Of a stretch of 33,426 nucleotides of DNA, positions 409 to 24,453 are shown one piece after another. Position 1 is the stretch's first letter. Each line of letters opens with the position of its first letter. Origin of the DNA: Candidatus Rokuibacteriota bacterium (GTDB lineage: Bacteria; Methylomirabilota; Methylomirabilia; Rokubacteriales; CSP1-6); the NCBI GenBank assembly GCA_003220495.1, contig QHSP01000089.1, forward strand, positions 1 to 33,426, read 5' to 3'. The position numbers and the translations under genes are program-made. The notes below the pieces were generated by a model. That model was given only the letters and a program-made list of their open reading frames with translations, had not been told where the DNA came from and searched no databases.

Positions 409-440
409 TTGACTCTCCCCATCAGGGGAGGCTTTAGCCT
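409..440 (+). promoter_or_regulatory. MerR-type promoter/operator of the first MerR gene
   Basis: A -35 box TTGACT (409-414) is followed by the perfect inverted repeat CTCCCC-ATCA-GGGGAG (415-430) and a weak -10 in GCTTTAGCCT (431-440). The long spacer (about 18-19 bp) filled by a GC-rich dyad, with TTTAGCCT at the -10, is the classic architecture of promoters twisted open by MerR-family activators. Transcription would start near 445 and read into the MerR gene at 481 and the MFS gene behind it, which implies autoregulation of the operon. Confidence 0.75.
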
Positions 441-480
441 CGTCGAGGAGATCCGGACGTTTCGTGCGAGGAGGTCCCAA

Positions 481-1017
481 GTGTTCACAGGAATCCGATC
501 GGTGGGCAACAGCGCGAATGGCCACGAGCCTGGGCTCCTGACGATCGGAGAGGTGGCGCGGCGGTCCGGCTTCACCGTGAAGGCTCTCAGGTTCTATGAC
601 CGCCACGGGCTCTTACCTCCCTGCCGGCGTCGACCCAGCGGCTACCGTCTCTACAGTGAGTCAGATCTCCACCGGCTGGAGTTCATTCGCCAAGCGAAGG
701 CTCTCGGGCTGAGCCTTCGCGCCATCCGAGACCTCGTCGCGGCGGCCCGGGTGCCCGGCACCGCACGCTTCCGGTTGCGTCTTCTCCGGATGCTCAGCGA
801 GCGGATCGCTCAGACGACACACCAGATCACGACCCTCACGGCCCTTCGCAGGGAACTCGAGCGCCGGCGCCGAATCCTGGCGTCGCGGCAGGACGAGGAA
901 AGAGGACCTGGGTACTGCACCTGCCTGCATAACGCAACGGCGCGAATCGTACCGGACAGGCCGGAGATCAAGGCCAGATGGAACCGGTTGCAGGCCAAGA
1001 CCGGCACGATCCAATAG
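481..1017 (+). CDS. MerR-family transcriptional regulator (first copy)
   Basis: A 178-residue DNA-binding regulator. The N-terminal winged helix-turn-helix (about residues 19-90) has the family signatures LTIGEVARRSGFTVKALRFYD, shortened here, and RRPSGYRLY; a long helical dimerisation segment follows. I chose the GTG at 481 because AGGAGGT lies about 6 bases upstream (469-475) and because the MerR-type operator at 409-440 would otherwise be inside the gene. The usual metal-site cysteine at the start of the dimer helix is absent; the only tight cysteine cluster is C146-x-C148-x-H150 near the C-terminus, so the ligand may be a metal or something else. The gene overlaps the following MFS gene by 40 bp, so that transporter is the likely regulated target. 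Confidence 0.85.
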   Translation: MFTGIRSVGNSANGHEPGLLTIGEVARRSGFTVKALRFYDRHGLLPPCRRRPSGYRLYSESDLHRLEFIRQAKALGLSLRAIRDLVAAARVPGTARFRLRLLRMLSERIAQTTHQITTLTALRRELERRRRILASRQDEERGPGYCTCLHNATARIVPDRPEIKARWNRLQAKTGTIQ

Positions 1018-14971: not shown

Positions 14972-17071
14972 TTATCGCCGGAGCCGGAGCAGACGCGCGT
15001 TGAACGCGACGATCAGGGTCGAGACGGACATGAGCACCGCACCGACCGCTGGCGTGAGCAAGATGCCAGCAGGGTAGAGCACGCCTGCGGCCACCGGGAT
15101 GGCCAGCACGTTGTACCCGGTGGCCCACCACAGATTCTGGACCATCTTCCGGTAGGTCGCCCGGGCGAGCTCGACGATGGCCGTTACGTCGCGCGGGTCG
15201 GACCGGACCAGTACGATGTCCGCGGACTCGATCGCCACGTCGGTACCAGCACCGACCGCGATGCCGACGTCGGCCTGGGTGAGCGCAGGTGCGTCGTTCA
15301 CGCCGTCACCGGTCATCGCGACGGTTAGTCCTCGTGCCTGCACGTCCTTGATCTTGGTCGCCTTCTGGTCGGGAAGGACCTCGGCGAAGAACTCGTCGAG
15401 GTCGAGCTCGCGCGCCACCCAGCGCGCCACCGCCGAGGCATCCCCGGTGAGCATCATGACCCGGATGCCCATCGCCTTGAGCCGGGCGAGCGCCTCGCGC
15501 GACTCCGGACGGATCACGTCGGCCAGAGCGATCGCGCCCTCCACTCGCTCGTCGACCAGCACGTAGACGACGGTCTTCCCCTGCTCGGCCACTTCGCGCA
15601 TTCGGGGGTGATACGCGCTGAGCCCGGAAGCCTTCAGGTAGCCCGGGCTCACGACCTTGACCTTCACGCCCTCCACCAGCGCCTCGGCGCCCCTGCCCGG
15701 GATCGCTCTGAAGTCCTTAGGCGGCGCGACCGCGACTCCGCGCTCGCCGGCACTCCGGACCACGCCCGTCGCAATAGGGTGCTCCGACTGGCTCTCGAGG
15801 CTAGCCGCGAGGCGCAGCAACTCCTGCTCGCTCCGAGCGCCGAGCGAAATCACGTCGGTCACGCCGAAGCGGCCCTCAGTGAGCGTGCCCGTCTTGTCGA
15901 AGACGATCGCGTCGAGCGCTCGGGCGCGCTCGAAGGCCGAGCGATCGCGGATCAGGAGGCCGTTGGCCGCCGACAGCGCCGTGGACATCGCGACGACCAG
16001 CGGCACGGCGAGCCCCAGCGCATGCGGGCACGCGATGACCATGACGGTCACTGTGCGCTCTACGGCAAAGGGCAGACTCGTGCCGAGCGCAAGCCAGGCC
16101 CCGAGCGTCACGGCGCCACCCCCCAGAGCCACGCCCGTCAACCAGACCGCCGCGCGGTTGGCGAGATCCTGGGAGCGCGAGCGCGACTCCTGAGCCTGTC
16201 GGACCAGCGCGACGACCTGGGCGAGGTAGGTCTCATCGCCCGTCTTCGTCACCTCCACGGTGATCGCCGCTTCGCCGTTGACGGAGCCGCCGATCACCGC
16301 CGCGCCCTTCGCCTTCTCGACCGGCTTGCTCTCGCCCGTCAGCATCGCCTCATTGACGGAGGTGTGGCCATCAACGATCACGCCGTCGGTCGGAATCTTC
16401 TCCCCAGGCTTCACCAGCACACGATGGCCGCGCCGGAGCTCGGTGACTGGCACGTCGCGGGTGGCGCCGTCGCTCTGGACCAGGTGCGCCTCCGCCGGCA
16501 TGAGACGCACCAGGCTCTCGAGCGCCGCGGACGCGCCGAGCACCGACTTCATCTCGATCCAGTGGCCGACCAGCATAATGTCGATCAGCGTCGCCAGCTC
16601 CCAGAAGAAGTCTTCTCCGCGGAGGCCGAACACCACGGCGCTGCTATAGCCGTAGGCGACCGCGATCGCGAGGCCGATCAGCGTCATCATCCCTGGGCGC
16701 CATGTCCGGACTTCGCCGACCAGGCCGGTCAGGAACGGCCAGCCGCCGTAGAAGAAGATGGCTGAGGCGAGGACGAACTGGACGAGATTGTCGCCGGGGA
16801 ACGTCAGCGCGTCGTGGAGCCCGAGCCATCCCTGGATATGCGGGGCGAGAACGAGCACCGGCACCGTCAGGACGAGCGATACCCAGAAACGCCGCCGGAA
16901 GTCCGCAACCATGTGCGCGTGGTGGCTCGTGAGCGGGCGCGCACTCTCTCCCGGATGGCCGGGCGCCGCGTGGCGGGCGTGGTGCTCATGCTGTGGGAGT
17001 TGATCGGGCGGTCGGGGCCCTCCCGCCTGACCGTGGGCGTGATCGTGCGCATGACCGTGATGGTCCTTCAT
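14972..17071 (-). CDS. copB: Copper-type P1B ATPase (CopB-like, CPH motif)
   Basis: A 699-residue heavy-metal ATPase. The N-terminus is His-rich (MKDHHGHAHDHAHG, then HEHHARH and TSHHAH) and replaces the usual HMA domains. It has T245-G-E-S248 in the actuator domain, the transmembrane metal motif C348-P-H350, the phosphorylated D392 in DKTGT, and MLTGD and TGDGVNDAP in the P domain. CPH plus a His-rich tail marks the P1B-3 (CopB) group, which exports copper ions. I use ATG 17071, with AGGAGGGG close upstream, rather than a start 28 codons earlier that has no membrane or metal features. It is the last gene of the leftward cluster containing cytochromes and a porin-like protein. Silver could be an additional substrate. 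Confidence 0.9.
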   Translation of the reverse strand: MKDHHGHAHDHAHGQAGGPRPPDQLPQHEHHARHAAPGHPGESARPLTSHHAHMVADFRRRFWVSLVLTVPVLVLAPHIQGWLGLHDALTFPGDNLVQFVLASAIFFYGGWPFLTGLVGEVRTWRPGMMTLIGLAIAVAYGYSSAVVFGLRGEDFFWELATLIDIMLVGHWIEMKSVLGASAALESLVRLMPAEAHLVQSDGATRDVPVTELRRGHRVLVKPGEKIPTDGVIVDGHTSVNEAMLTGESKPVEKAKGAAVIGGSVNGEAAITVEVTKTGDETYLAQVVALVRQAQESRSRSQDLANRAAVWLTGVALGGGAVTLGAWLALGTSLPFAVERTVTVMVIACPHALGLAVPLVVAMSTALSAANGLLIRDRSAFERARALDAIVFDKTGTLTEGRFGVTDVISLGARSEQELLRLAASLESQSEHPIATGVVRSAGERGVAVAPPKDFRAIPGRGAEALVEGVKVKVVSPGYLKASGLSAYHPRMREVAEQGKTVVYVLVDERVEGAIALADVIRPESREALARLKAMGIRVMMLTGDASAVARWVARELDLDEFFAEVLPDQKATKIKDVQARGLTVAMTGDGVNDAPALTQADVGIAVGAGTDVAIESADIVLVRSDPRDVTAIVELARATYRKMVQNLWWATGYNVLAIPVAAGVLYPAGILLTPAVGAVLMSVSTLIVAFNARLLRLRR

Positions 17072-17213
17072 GCGCCCCTCCTCTCGCCGCGGTCGTTCAC
17101 GTCGCTTCGGAAGAGATGGTCTGCTGGATCGCCCTTCGGCCACGCGAACCGCCACCCTTTAGGCGTCGCGGGACCAAGGATGGCAATAGCGACGACTGGT
17201 CCGCAAGCATTCA

Positions 17214-20395: not shown

Positions 20396-20731
20396 TTAGA
20401 TCAGGAGCGCGGCGTGCAACAGGAAGAGCGGGGGGGAGCTCGTCGGCGCCGGTGCCGACGTTGGGTGCGCACGGAGTCTCTCGAGGTCGCCGATGACCGG
20501 CAGAACGATGCCGGTCGGAAGGAGGGCCGGCACATCGACATCGGAGTCGGCACGAAGAGCCTCACAGGAGCCGCCGTGAGCGGCCTCGTCACTGCCGCTC
20601 TCGGGATGGTCCTCGCTGTGGGTCGTCACCGCTCCGGCGTGAGCGTGAAACGGAGCCGCGCAGATATGACCGAACACGACGAACATAGCTACACTGACGA
20701 GCAGCCAGGACGACAGATGTCGGCCGTTCAT
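20396..20731 (-). CDS. Small secreted or membrane His-rich protein
   Basis: A 111-residue protein opening the leftward metal cluster. An N-terminal hydrophobic segment (LSSWLLVSVAMFVVFGHICAA) is followed by a His-containing stretch (PFHAHAGAVTTHSEDHPE, then DEAAHGGSCEAL) and a hydrophobic C-terminus (LFLLHAALLI). Small proteins of this layout are common beside copper and silver resistance genes, but no specific family is recognised. ATG 20731 is chosen because a perfect TTGACA/TAGTCT promoter (20739-20767) ends only about 8 bases upstream; an in-frame ATG at 20767 would lie in that promoter. The transcript would then be leaderless or nearly so. Confidence 0.6.
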   Translation of the reverse strand: MNGRHLSSWLLVSVAMFVVFGHICAAPFHAHAGAVTTHSEDHPESGSDEAAHGGSCEALRADSDVDVPALLPTGIVLPVIGDLERLRAHPTSAPAPTSSPPLFLLHAALLI

Positions 20732-20738
20732 TATGGTC

Positions 20739-20767
20739 AGACTAATGAGCGCCCAGCGCCATGTCAA
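20739..20767 (-). promoter_or_regulatory. Promoter of the leftward cytochrome/CopB cluster
   Basis: On the minus strand, TTGACA (20762-20767) and TAGTCT (20739-20744) are separated by exactly 17 bp. Transcription would begin around 20732, at or next to the ATG of the first gene. It is divergent from, and about 90 bp away from, the MerR-type promoter at 20858. Confidence 0.65.
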
Positions 20768-20857: not shown

Positions 20858-20889
20858 TTGACCTTGCCCTAGGGGGCAAGCCTTATCCT
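20858..20889 (+). promoter_or_regulatory. MerR-type promoter/operator of the second MerR gene
   Basis: TTGACC (20858-20863) is followed by the perfect dyad CTTGCCC-TAGG-GGGCAAG (20863-20880) and TTATCC (20883-20888), a 19-bp spacer. The arrangement closely mirrors CueR/ZntR-type promoters, which sense Cu, Zn, Cd or Hg. The predicted start, near 20895, falls on the GTG codon at 20896. Confidence 0.8.
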
Positions 20890-20895
20890 ACTCTC

Positions 20896-21417
20896 GTGGC
20901 GCGAGACGGACTGCTCATCGGAGAGGTGGCGACGCGCAGCGGCCTGAGCCGCAAGGCTCTGCGGTTGTACGAGGCGCGAGGCATCCTCCCGCCATCGCGA
21001 CGCACGCCGTCCGGCTACCGCACGTACCCCCTGGATGTTCTCGGCGTGCTCCACTTCATAGCGCAAGCCCGACGCCTAGGACTGACCCTGGCCGAGATCG
21101 GGAGCGTCGTCGCGCTTCGGTCCGCAAAGCCAGGCCCGTGCGTTCACGTGCGCGCTCTCCTGGAGCGAAAGGTCGCGGACTTGGACAACCTGCGGCGCGA
21201 GCTTCGGCGCATTCTCGATTCCTGGGATGCCTCGAGTCAGCGTCGGGGCGTCGTCTGCCAGCACATCGAGGGCGAAGGAGGTGAAACGTCATGGAGAGAG
21301 TCTCACTCTGCCCAGCCTGCACGGCCTGCCCCGAGGTCGTCATGGAAGGCGATACCATCCGCATCGGCGAAGACACGAACGTCGTCGTCCTCAAGAAAGC
21401 GGAATGGAACGTGCTAG
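20896..21417 (+). CDS. MerR-family metal-sensing regulator (second copy)
   Basis: The winged helix-turn-helix (residues 6-75: LLIGEVATRSGLSRKALRLYE, shortened; RRTPSGYRTY) is followed by the dimer helix and metal-loop signature. C82 (KPGPCVHVR) and C121 (GVVCQHIEG) are present, but W110 stands where mercury sensors have the middle cysteine, pointing to a two-cysteine site as in copper or zinc sensors. I start at GTG 20896 because the MerR operator at 20858-20889 would otherwise lie inside the gene; the frame itself is open from ATG 20830. The 3' end is odd: after GEGGETS the frame has no stop and runs 127 bp into the next gene with a low-complexity Ser/Arg-rich tail, so the true stop may have been lost. 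Confidence 0.85.
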   Translation: MARDGLLIGEVATRSGLSRKALRLYEARGILPPSRRTPSGYRTYPLDVLGVLHFIAQARRLGLTLAEIGSVVALRSAKPGPCVHVRALLERKVADLDNLRRELRRILDSWDASSQRRGVVCQHIEGEGGETSWRESHSAQPARPAPRSSWKAIPSASAKTRTSSSSRKRNGTC

Positions 21418-21455
21418 TCGAAGCCATCAAGTCCGGCCGGCTCGACCGGGTGTGA
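21291..21455 (+). CDS. 54-residue CxxCxxC protein
   Basis: ATG 21291 is preceded by AAGGAGGTGA (21275-21284), the best ribosome site in the window. The product begins MERVSLCPACTACPEV, with cysteines spaced C7-x-x-C10-x-x-C13, then an acidic and hydrophobic segment (GDTIRIGEDTNVVVLKKAEW) and a C-terminal helix. The cysteine cluster suggests binding of a soft metal or an Fe-S centre; I recognise no named family. It overlaps the 3' end of the second MerR gene in another frame; the balance of evidence favours this small frame being real there. Under the MerR promoter it would be made together with its regulator and could be a cytoplasmic metal buffer. Confidence 0.7.
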   Translation: MERVSLCPACTACPEVVMEGDTIRIGEDTNVVVLKKAEWNVLVEAIKSGRLDRV

Positions 21456-21515: not shown

Positions 21516-22751
21516 TCATCCACCAGAGCGCGTGCGGCCGGCCTCCGCCCGCAAGAAGAAGCTTCCGCTGGTCACGACAAGCTCACCCGGCTTCACGCCA
21601 TCGAGCACCTCGAGCGACTCGCCGAGCGCGGCGCCGAGCTTCACGGACCGTTCCGCGAAGCGCCCCTCGCCGCCCTCCACCAGGACGTAGACGACGTTGC
21701 GGTTGCCCACGGCCTGGACGGCGTCCCGCGGCACGAGCGTGACGTGGCCGCCGGAGCGTGACTCGAAGCTGAGCGTCACGTACATGCCCAGTCGCAGATC
21801 GCCGCCCTTGTTCGGCACCTCCACGCGCACCCTGGCGGTTCGCGTGGCGGGATCGACCCGCGGGTCGATGTAGGCGACGCGCCCGCGCAGTGGCGCCACG
21901 GTGCTCACAGGCACCGTCACTGTCGCTTGGCTTCCGACGCGGACAACCGGGAAGTCCTTCTCGTAGAGATCGCCGATCGCCCAGACGGTGCTGAGGTCGG
22001 TGACCGTGAAGAGCTCTTGCCCCGCGCTCACCACCTGGCCCGGATTCACGCCTCGCGCGATCACCACCCCGTCCGCGGGCGCTCGGACCGTGACCTCCGA
22101 GACCACGTGCGACGCATCCGTGAGACGGGAGACATCGTCCGGCCCGAGCCCCAGCAACAGGAGGCGCTGGCGTGCCGCGGCGACCTCGGTCTCATGGCCG
22201 GTGTGGATCGCCGTGATCTCTTCCAGCTCCTGACGGCTCGCCGCGCCGAGCGTCGCGAGCTTCTGCGTTCGCTCGAGCTTCTGATGATCGGCGTTCAGCA
22301 TGGCCTGCATCGCGAGATACTTCATCTGCGCCTCGGCCAGCTCCACGCTGAAGATCACGGTCAGCGGCTGACCGCGCGTGACGGCCGTGCCCAGCTCGAC
22401 CGTCACCTGACGGACGACGCCCCCGACGAGCGCGTTCACCTTCGTGTCGCGGTAGGCGTTGGACATGACCGTCCCCGGAACCGTCAGCGTGGCGCTCGCC
22501 GGCACGCTTCGAGCCGCCGTCGTCTTGATCCCGGCCCGCTCGACCGCTTCAGGCGTGAGCACGACCTCAACGCTCTCGTCACTCTTCGCGGCTTCTCGAC
22601 TGGCCTGCACCGCCTCCGGCCCCGCCGAAATCCCACCGCCACCAGCCGGCCGACCACGGCCGGGACGCTCGGTCCACACCACGCCGGCCACCATTCCGAC
22701 GGCGATCAGCGCGACGGCGCCGACGCCTTGCGCAATGTGCCTCCGAGTCAT
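21516..22751 (-). CDS. cusB: CusB-type periplasmic adaptor of an RND metal efflux pump
   Basis: A 411-residue membrane-fusion protein. A single N-terminal membrane anchor (AVALIAVGMVAGVVW) precedes the adaptor core: barrel-sandwich halves around VNALVGGVVRQVTVELGTAV and VRAPADGVVIARGVNPGQVV, a helical hairpin (about residues 150-215) and beta-barrel and membrane-proximal domains. In the tripartite system it links the RND pump to the outer-membrane channel and, in copper pumps, delivers metal. The N-terminal Met cluster of E. coli CusB is not visible here. ATG 22751 overlaps the stop of the outer-membrane gene (ATGA). Last gene of its cluster; a terminator-like hairpin lies just beyond. Confidence 0.88.
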   Translation of the reverse strand: MTRRHIAQGVGAVALIAVGMVAGVVWTERPGRGRPAGGGGISAGPEAVQASREAAKSDESVEVVLTPEAVERAGIKTTAARSVPASATLTVPGTVMSNAYRDTKVNALVGGVVRQVTVELGTAVTRGQPLTVIFSVELAEAQMKYLAMQAMLNADHQKLERTQKLATLGAASRQELEEITAIHTGHETEVAAARQRLLLLGLGPDDVSRLTDASHVVSEVTVRAPADGVVIARGVNPGQVVSAGQELFTVTDLSTVWAIGDLYEKDFPVVRVGSQATVTVPVSTVAPLRGRVAYIDPRVDPATRTARVRVEVPNKGGDLRLGMYVTLSFESRSGGHVTLVPRDAVQAVGNRNVVYVLVEGGEGRFAERSVKLGAALGESLEVLDGVKPGELVVTSGSFFLRAEAGRTRSGG

Positions 22752-24031
22752 CGAGCCAGGGTCCCTGCCGCGCGCTCGATCCCGACCGCCGCGTCGTAGA
22801 CTTGCTTGAGGGCGTCCGTGTAGCCGTTCTCGACCTCGATGAAGCGCCTCTGTTCCGCGATGACGTCCAGAAGCGATCCACGGCCGAGCTGGTAGGCCTG
22901 CCGGATCACGTCCAGGTTCCGCCGCGAGACGTCGCGCACCCCACGCTCGTAGATTTCGAGTGATCGCCGTGCGGCCTCGTACTGGGTGAAGGCAGCCCCG
23001 ACCTCCTGCTGCACCGTGAGCATGGCAAACTCCACCCGGCGCTCCGCCGCACGAGTCGCCGCCGTCGCGGCCGCCACGTTGCCCTCATTACGGTTCCTGA
23101 CCGGGAGCACGATGCTCACGCCGCCGCCGAAATAGTGGAAGACGTCCTGGATCGGCCGCTGAGTGCCGCTCGCCGTCAGCCCGTTCAGCGCGAAGCCAAA
23201 ATCCTGGCGCTGGTAGCCGACGTTTATCGTCGCGTCCCAACGACCCTCCGCCTGCTCCTTTCTGACCATCGCGGCCGCCATTGCCGCCTCGGCCCGCGCG
23301 ACGGCCAGGTCCGGCCGGTCGCTGACCGCGCGCTGCGTCGCGTCCGCACGATCGAGCGCCAACGGTGCCAGCGCCAGCTCTCCCTTCAGCGCGAGCGGAG
23401 CATCCGGCGCCATCCCGGCGAGCAGCTTCAGCTGGAGCCCGGCGATCTCGACCCGGCTCTGAGCGAGCTGCCGGCTCGCGTCCAGTCGATTCACTTCGAC
23501 GAGCTGCAGGCCCTCGTCGAGCGACGGAGCGGCTCCCTGGCGCACCCGTGTCCCTACCACCTCGAGCGCGTTCCGGTTCACGCCCAGAAGCTCGTCGGTG
23601 ACCTGGAGGTTCCGCTGGGCCGCCAGCAGCTCGCCCGCCTTCATGCGCACCTCGGCACGCACCTGCCGCTCACGCTCGGCGACCTGGCGGCGCCGCGTCT
23701 CGATTTCCTGCTCCGCGACCCCGACGCGTCCTTCTTTGCGTCCGTTCAGATCGAGCGGGAGCGAGACGCCGACCGTCAGGTTGTTGTCGGGGCTCAGCGC
23801 CTTCTGGCCGCCCAGCTCGAGCATCGGGTTGGGCCGCAGGCCCGCCTGCTGGAGCCGCCCCGCCGAAGCCTCGACCTCGAGCCGCGCCGCCTTGAGATCG
23901 GGATTGTCGGCGAGCGCGCGAGCCACAAGCTCGTCCACGGTCACCTCGCCGATCGCCTGTGCCCGCGCGGGCCCAGGGACGATCGCGACGAGCCCGATCA
24001 GAAGTAGCGCGAGCCCTTTGCCGCCTCGCAT
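22748..24031 (-). CDS. cusC: Outer-membrane efflux protein (TolC/CusC type)
   Basis: A 427-residue outer-membrane factor with a signal peptide (about residues 1-25, ending ARA). Two repeats of long coiled helices (about 30-230 and 250-425), with LADNPDLKAARLEVEA and SDRPDLAVARAEAAM at equivalent positions, are the TolC-family duplication. It would form the trimeric exit channel. No lipobox cysteine is present, unlike E. coli CusC. I use the ATG at 24031; the frame extends 22 codons further but overlaps the preceding gene. It begins 11 bp after the YtkA-like gene and overlaps cusB by 4 bp, so all are in one operon. Confidence 0.88.
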   Translation of the reverse strand: MRGGKGLALLLIGLVAIVPGPARAQAIGEVTVDELVARALADNPDLKAARLEVEASAGRLQQAGLRPNPMLELGGQKALSPDNNLTVGVSLPLDLNGRKEGRVGVAEQEIETRRRQVAERERQVRAEVRMKAGELLAAQRNLQVTDELLGVNRNALEVVGTRVRQGAAPSLDEGLQLVEVNRLDASRQLAQSRVEIAGLQLKLLAGMAPDAPLALKGELALAPLALDRADATQRAVSDRPDLAVARAEAAMAAAMVRKEQAEGRWDATINVGYQRQDFGFALNGLTASGTQRPIQDVFHYFGGGVSIVLPVRNRNEGNVAAATAATRAAERRVEFAMLTVQQEVGAAFTQYEAARRSLEIYERGVRDVSRRNLDVIRQAYQLGRGSLLDVIAEQRRFIEVENGYTDALKQVYDAAVGIERAAGTLAR

Positions 24032-24042
24032 GGCCGGCGCCC

Positions 24043-24453
24043 CTAACGGACCGGGACCGAGAACTTGGTCGACCCCTTGCCCGTTGGGCCGTCCCACGTC
24101 ACGGTCACCTGTCGTGCTCCCCGATCGGGGAAGTCGATCGTGCCGCGATAACGACCCGGGGCCTCCGACGTCAGTGTCGCGCCGGCGACCATCGGTGCCA
24201 TCCCCGGCATCGCCATGCTCGTGTTCAGCGACACCTTGCCCACATCAACCGGCTTCTTGTCCTGGAGGGACGTGAACTCCAGCACGAACTCGTTCTTCCC
24301 CTGCTTCCACTGGCCCGATTCGTTCTGCAGCGTCACGGCGACGTCCTTCGCCTTCTGGGTATAGATGGGCTTCATGTCCGCCGCGGTCGCGGCGGGAGTT
24401 CCGACCATCGTCAGAACCACGAGCAAAAGCGTCACGATCAGACCTTTCAGCAT
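24043..24453 (-). CDS. YtkA-like secreted protein
   Basis: A 136-residue protein with a signal peptide (residues 1-24, ending ATAA). The mature part is a single beta-sandwich of the YtkA/FixH-like type: QNESGQWKQGKNEFVLEF, a Met-rich turn with SMAMPGMAPM (about residues 88-97), GRYRGTIDFPDRGARQVTV and TKFSVPV. YtkA-like domains are often fused or linked to CusB-type adaptors and copper handling; the Met-rich loop could bind Cu(I). ATG 24453 follows AAGGAGG. It sits between cusA and cusC, the place where other species have a small copper chaperone such as CusF, so a similar function is plausible. Confidence 0.75.
   Translation of the reverse strand: MLKGLIVTLLLVVLTMVGTPAATAADMKPIYTQKAKDVAVTLQNESGQWKQGKNEFVLEFTSLQDKKPVDVGKVSLNTSMAMPGMAPMVAGATLTSEAPGRYRGTIDFPDRGARQVTVTWDGPTGKGSTKFSVPVR

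Follow-up and report, generated by a model that had tools for sequence, protein, structure and literature searches.

A small CxxCxxC protein gene overlapping merR in a Rokubacteria genome and its possible role as a DUF397-like partner of the regulator

The small gene that lies beside merR in the window, i.e. the whole stretch of 33,426 nucleotides that was analysed, is a real and previously overlooked gene. Its product is a protein of 54 amino acids (MERVSLCPACTACPEVVMEGDTIRIGEDTNVVVLKKAEWNVLVEAIKSGRLDRV) with cysteines at C7, C10 and C13. Sequence comparison, structural models and analogy with known systems suggest, with a probability of about 0.5, that this protein would be a DUF397-like partner carrying an added CxxCxxC soft-metal site and acting with a metal-sensing MerR of the Cu/Hg type. 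The frame with its ribosome-binding site, the 54 residues with three cysteines and the 127-bp overlap with a longer frame had been read from the sequence in the initial annotation, and all are borne out (Table 1); the longer frame is that of merR, which ends at 21417.

Table 1. Coordinates of the merR operon, the small gene and the adjoining efflux genes in the window
Feature	Positions	Strand	Remarks
MerR-type promoter: -35 TTGACC 20858-20863, 20-bp spacer, -10 TATCCT 20884-20889	20858..20889	+	
merR gene, probable GTG start	20896..21417	+	start 6 nt past -10
Ribosome-binding site AAGGAGGTGA of the small gene	21275..21284	+	5' of ATG 21291
Small gene (54-aa CxxCxxC protein, DUF397-like, predicted β-β-β-β-α)	21291..21455	+	homologues, codon-position bias, model
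Three-cysteine motif CPACTACP, residues 7-14	21309..21332	+	β1-β2 turn of model
Periplasmic adaptor of RND efflux system (HlyD_D23; RND_mfp)	21516..22751	-	convergent with the small gene
Outer membrane efflux protein (OEP) of that RND system	22748..24097	-	

Within its own genome the small protein has a single match, and its nearest homologue is 83% identical. At E ≤ 0.001, matches were obtained in 30 of 99 genomes including its own, which corresponds to 29 of 98 relatives. A profile search of the window's phylum found homologues in 32 of 95 genomes, own included, two of which (G028 and G065) match over the C-terminal half only. Outside this phylum the distribution is patchy, with matches in 9/285 genomes of the phylum of G101 (Omnitrophota), 4/245 of that of G108 (labelled Nitrospirota) and 5/395 of that of G107 (labelled Deltaproteobacteria), these samples including the centre genomes and some matches already known from the contig scan. 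The scan of named contigs gave 41 loci with the small gene, labelled Rokubacteria, NC10/Methylomirabilota, Omnitrophota, Nitrospirae, Elusimicrobia, Gemmatimonadetes and others. Since these loci are labelled as MAGs and some of them (labelled Chloroflexi and Acidobacteria) may be misbinned, the taxonomic spread may be overstated. All three cysteines are invariant in the 33 aligned homologues (33/33), with a spacing of C-x3-C-x2-C in a few of them (L021, L024 and L025), and a strong Shine-Dalgarno sequence is a feature of most homologues too.

Being short and sharing 127 bp with merR, the frame could have been a spurious one within the regulator gene, an explanation whose probability we consider negligible. 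Compared with six relatives, the substitutions in the overlap fall on small-frame codon positions 1, 2 and 3 in the numbers 36, 27 and 103; the chi-square P of this bias is 3e-14 if the substitutions are taken as independent, which is optimistic because one sequence is compared repeatedly. Beyond the overlap the corresponding numbers are 16, 21 and 27, with no clear bias (P 0.24). Across the overlap the third codon positions of the small gene coincide with second positions in the MerR frame; hence it is for the small protein, not MerR, that the overlap is maintained. Together with the 83% identity of the nearest homologue, the matches in 30 of the 99 genomes and the invariant cysteines, this third-position bias shows that the small frame is not due to chance. 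The spurious frame is thus ruled out by the codon-position counts in the overlap and by homologues in several phyla, and the Shine-Dalgarno sequence and the variable MerR stops also speak against it.

Indeed, many related MerR proteins stop no more than about 5-20 residues from a VCPHIE-like motif, and others read on for variable distances to very differently placed stops. The stops of the MerR frame range from ~120 bp before to ~235 bp after the start of the small gene, leaving aside L019 and L043, where the MerR match is split over two frames, and L070, which has an N run; in several loci the two genes have 4-bp stop/start overlaps. In the window, the conserved MerR protein ends near VCQHIE (~21270) and the remainder reads through into the small gene. 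A conserved MerR extension through the small frame, named at the outset as the observation that would speak against the gene, was looked for among the related proteins and none was found, the stops being scattered and the overlap evolving for the small frame. The MerR tail as a conserved domain is likewise ruled out, as its stops are scattered and its sequence is unconserved.

The search for homologues beside merR genes, which had been proposed as a check, showed a merR within 200 nt on the same strand for 48 of 54 distinct usable homologues, the small gene following merR in 45 and preceding it in 3. The starting set comprised 61 distinct domain sequences that were 40 residues or longer (shorter stretches, e.g. 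L060 and L069-L071, lie outside it), from which the remote members L137 and L145-L148, the broken fragment L144 and L048 at a contig edge were dropped. In L056 and L053, merR is found 807 and 1760 nt upstream of the small gene, respectively, and a CopZ-cluster (zf_CopZ) gene lies directly 5' of the small gene, itself preceded in L053 by a MerT-HMA-cluster gene. L046 shows the promoter and the beginning of the MerR coding sequence up to an N run, and no merR was found in the flanking sequence covered for L089, L058 and L139.

Control of the small gene by a MerR promoter had also been put forward. A MerR-type promoter does lie 5', with the dyad TTGCCCTAGGGGGCAAG in its spacer, but it is merR's own; hence the small gene comes second in an operon that is probably autoregulated. 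As this promoter falls within the longer frame that starts at ATG 20830, GTG 20896 is the more likely start of MerR. With a script, the same promoter layout was found 5' of 30 of the 35 distinct merR cores, only loci with a placeable core being scanned, and in none of 5100 mononucleotide-shuffled sequences. The misses are L011, L014, L026, L028 and L050, of which L011 shows a MerR-type promoter in a separate scan. The script favours a 20-bp spacer where several fit; in the separate scan, open to 17-21 bp without preference, the spacer was also 20 bp throughout, except that L001 allowed 19 as an alternative. In 19 of the 30 merR genes with a promoter the distance from the -10 to the first start codon is exactly 6 nt, and in 3 it is 7 nt, so that merR messages with this start spacing, the one of the window included, are probably leaderless. 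From the strong Shine-Dalgarno sequence of the small gene as compared to a leaderless merR, we infer that the small protein is made in large excess over MerR. In L027, L028 and L029 the order is inverted, the small gene being first and merR second; the full promoter was found by script in two of these three loci, and a MerR-type -10 is visible in the leader 5' of the small gene.

The MerR of the window contains the HTH and the dimerisation helix, a likeness to CueR, MerR and CadR, and its closest NCBIfam model is CueR (TIGR02044), at 73 bits far under the cut-off of 147.4. Aligned with MerR (4ua1) and CadR (6jgv), the family of these MerR partners keeps the helix cysteine whereas the first loop cysteine is replaced by Trp. 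Among 33 distinct MerR cores, the helix cysteine is present in 32 and the first-loop column holds Trp in 28 and Cys in none, L062 and L065 having a Cys one column off this Trp column. The last loop cysteine is present in 33/33, which is uninformative since the cores were picked by a motif containing it. The partner therefore does not have the helix cysteine plus two loop cysteines of the three-cysteine MerR/CadR sensors, and the dedicated small gene after merR is a further difference from CueR, MerR and CadR. Given the change to Trp in most of these proteins, one can conceive of a partner protein sharing the ligand or delivering it; in view of the Cys beside the Trp column in L062 and L065, the idea that the small protein completes a split metal site is speculation.

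Soft metals are the likely inducers of the merR operon, considering the RND efflux set, the MerT-HMA and zf_CopZ neighbours and the operators, many of which we take to resemble the copA/CueR operator (TTGACCTTgcCC-GGgcAAGG promoters). At the 41 contig loci, clusters resembling RND pumps, adaptors and outer-membrane proteins occur in 9, 8 and 6, respectively, labels that were given by the appearance of the clusters. Loci of Omnitrophota show a MerT-HMA fusion, a zf_CopZ/BFD protein and a redoxin, the MerT-HMA and zf_CopZ labels coming from other cluster representatives than the copies in L053 and L056. In L051, an HMA domain immediately follows the merR and small-gene pair. The genome of the window has one HMA match (E ≤ 0.001), inside a 982-aa frame, and no stand-alone CopZ was found in it.

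Divergent from merR, positions 20396-20767 of the window (minus strand) encode a small secreted-looking protein with His residues; similar proteins adjoin the pair in L035, L044 and L070, and neither the window protein nor its L070 counterpart has a Pfam match. Translations read by eye indicate, at 14972-17155 (minus strand), a protein resembling a heavy-metal P-type ATPase, His-rich at its N-terminus and containing DKTGTLT, and, at 409-1017 (plus strand), another MerR-like gene with an MFS-like transporter after it.

No convincing match for the small protein was obtained in Pfam, NCBIfam or PHROGs, the window protein having no Pfam match above the cut-off and a best NCBIfam score of 12.1 bits against a cut-off of 100. 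Usp-48 was listed for 22 of the 33 members at E ≤ 1 with a best E of 0.0043, and scored 15.3 bits with the window member (cut-off 27); we take this match to be probably due to chance. At E ≤ 1, HMA (PF00403) gave no match and DUF397 (PF04149) was absent for all 33 members, and the solved structures searched by sequence gave no relative (best E 0.48).

DUF397 was chosen from the look of the C-terminal half and then tested using DUF397 sequences from plasmids and later from viral contigs (50 of 65 viral-contig loci used). In hhalign local mode, the small family compared with 13 DUF397 sequences gave a probability of 85.7%, and only 20.3% in global mode. The addition of five remote members to the small family gave 88.8% in local mode, the reversed profile scoring 8.6 and 150 shuffles at most 18.8. 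Against a deeper DUF397 set, the local values were 86.5% without the remote members (P 4.6e-6) and 93.4% with them (P 2.5e-7), at a score of 36.3 for a maximum of 16.2 in 200 column shuffles, and separate alignments without remote members gave 92.1% (P 6.1e-7). Because this family was selected by eye, multiple families have to be corrected for, and these P values multiplied by the 24,736 Pfam families become ~0.006 to 0.14, according to the alignment. The similarity spans 51-53 columns. The invariant cysteine of DUF397 aligns with the third cysteine of the small protein; thus the family linked to MerR has the first two in addition. Indeed, where DUF397 has W-x-KSS-x-S-G before C-V-E-V, the small family has SLCPxCxxCPEV instead, and just the Cys and the following E-V correspond. 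On these profile comparisons, the small protein looks like a distant relative of DUF397.

The AlphaFold model of the small protein (pLDDT 84.5) predicts strands at residues 2-5, 15-19, 22-27 and 30-35 and a helix at 36-48, with moderate confidence only for the cysteine loop. That of a DUF397 protein (L169 1486-1680, m33a54cef139d; pLDDT 88.5) has strands at 6-8, 19-25, 28-33 and 42-44 and a helix at 46-57. Both are β-β-β-β-α, so the two predicted folds agree, and their best structural rows share the KhtT N-domain, MoSub1, EF_3132 and SP_0782, with PC4 6ycs among those of the small protein and YdbC and WHY1 among those of DUF397. With VIA-align, the best rows of the small-protein model are PC4, MoSub1, EF_3132, SP_0782 and PBF-2 (Z 4.0-5.1, rmsd 2.2-4.2), PC4 6ycs giving Z 5.1, which is below 8, and rmsd 2.2 over 49 residues; a Foldseek search by itself found nothing at E ≤ 0.001. 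As all Z are below 5.5, a PC4-like fold of the model is tentative. The strand-strand-strand-strand-helix arrangement is similar to that of the PC4/YdbC/Whirly fold, but no sequence similarity to it was detected, the PC4 (PF02229) profile, made of 5 PC4 sequences from one phylum, scoring 14.2 against the small family with shuffles reaching 14.7. The DUF397 model on its own resembles the KhtT N-domain and the PC4/YdbC types (Z ~4-5), a possible lead to the fold of the BldB family.

DUF397 partners are abundant in Streptomyces: according to PMC10364602, S. coelicolor has 15 XRE-DUF397 pairs, and the XRE regulator Scr1 depends on its DUF397 partner Scr2 to function. For BldB, PMC10294661 reports no DNA binding and hetero-oligomers with many paralogues, its biochemical function still being called unknown. 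Like Scr2 and BldB, the members of the small family are small single-domain proteins, with a shared β-β-β-β-α model and profile similarity. Furthermore, in L104 and L106 a regulator gene immediately precedes the DUF397 gene, which is not so in L105. The differences are that the partner is MerR and not XRE, that CxxCxxC stands in place of the W-KSS-S region and that the hosts found here are non-Actinobacteria, unlike those of the DUF397 of Actinobacteria. By analogy, merR and the small gene would form a regulator plus DUF397-like partner as known with XRE; no title or abstract start among the papers listed in literature searches describes this pair.

The remote members L146-L148 have LC....SCCP in place of CPxCxxCP, and these three of the five are linked to an Rrf2 regulator gene; no regulator was identified for L145, whose neighbours lay outside the scan. 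In L148 (1008-2733) the remote member is directly downstream of the Rrf2 gene, and an ArsP-type permease that carries a YHS domain comes next. A NifU-like gene lies between the two in L146 (678-1653), where the small frame lacks a standard start codon; ~390 bp separate them in L147 (minus strand). In L137 (765-1453) the remote member follows a PemK/MazF-like gene and no MerR was found in the locus. In these small numbers, the Rrf2-linked members extend the pattern of a regulator plus a small partner. A broader proposal, which we regard as doubtful, is that DUF397-like proteins are general small regulator partners found far outside Streptomyces, of XRE in Actinobacteria, of MerR here and of Rrf2 in some remote members, and that the MerR-paired ones gained CxxCxxC. 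Regulator and partner would then make up a metal sensor of two proteins, the small one providing or taking away the ligand that MerR misses through its loop Cys to Trp change.

In the proposed partnership with MerR, a soft metal, most likely Cu(I) and in some loci Hg(II), would activate MerR, which would then induce merR and the small gene together. The small protein, made in excess, would bind the metal through CxxCxxC and act with MerR by feeding or removing metal or by binding the regulator directly, a role that may be likened to that of the DUF397 protein needed by its XRE partner. The main rival, possible but less likely in our estimation, is a cytosolic soft-metal chaperone or buffer which substitutes for CopZ and merely shares the merR operon. 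CopZ copper chaperones carry the motif MxCxxC, and the small protein resembles CopZ in its size, its cysteine motif and its position behind the promoter of a metal-type regulator, but differs by the absence of an HMA match, by its predicted fold and by its three cysteines. The invariance of these cysteines, the efflux genes near the window copy and other loci and the window genome, in which no stand-alone HMA protein was found, are in line with a chaperone or buffer. So are L053 and L056, where merR is distant and the small gene follows the zf_CopZ-cluster gene; they fit a metal-handling role equally and count against a partner of MerR. However, the partner gene is merR in 48/54, L051 already has an HMA domain right behind the pair, and the related DUF397 proteins partner regulators and keep the third cysteine only. 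Thus the pairing with merR and not with a pump gene, the DUF397 relationship and the fold favour a regulator partner at least as much as a buffer or metallochaperone.

It is unlikely that the protein is a PC4/Whirly-like nucleic-acid or RNA-polymerase cofactor working at the MerR promoter, with its cysteines binding an iron-sulfur cluster or a structural zinc. The CPxC motif resembles zinc knuckles, and PC4, MoSub1, EF_3132, SP_0782 and PBF-2 are among the best VIA-align rows; nevertheless, Z values below 8 may reflect a common arrangement alone, KhtT is equally high, the PC4 sequence score stays within its shuffles and the relative BldB bound no DNA according to PMC10294661. A toxin-antitoxin pair with MerR as the antitoxin is more improbable still. 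DUF397-XRE pairs were proposed as such in PMC2701414, and one remote member follows a PemK-like gene, but Scr1/Scr2 did not act as a toxin-antitoxin system according to PMC10364602, and the small protein was not found in the plasmids, phages and viral contigs searched.

The small gene fits none of the curated families searched. With a cysteine-bearing DUF397 relative placed next to a well-understood one-component metal sensor, the role of the partner would be directly measurable, merR and the small gene offering a test system with one promoter, one inducer and two small proteins. Moreover, the pair would add a piece to the metal handling of Rokubacteria, Omnitrophota and Nitrospirota.
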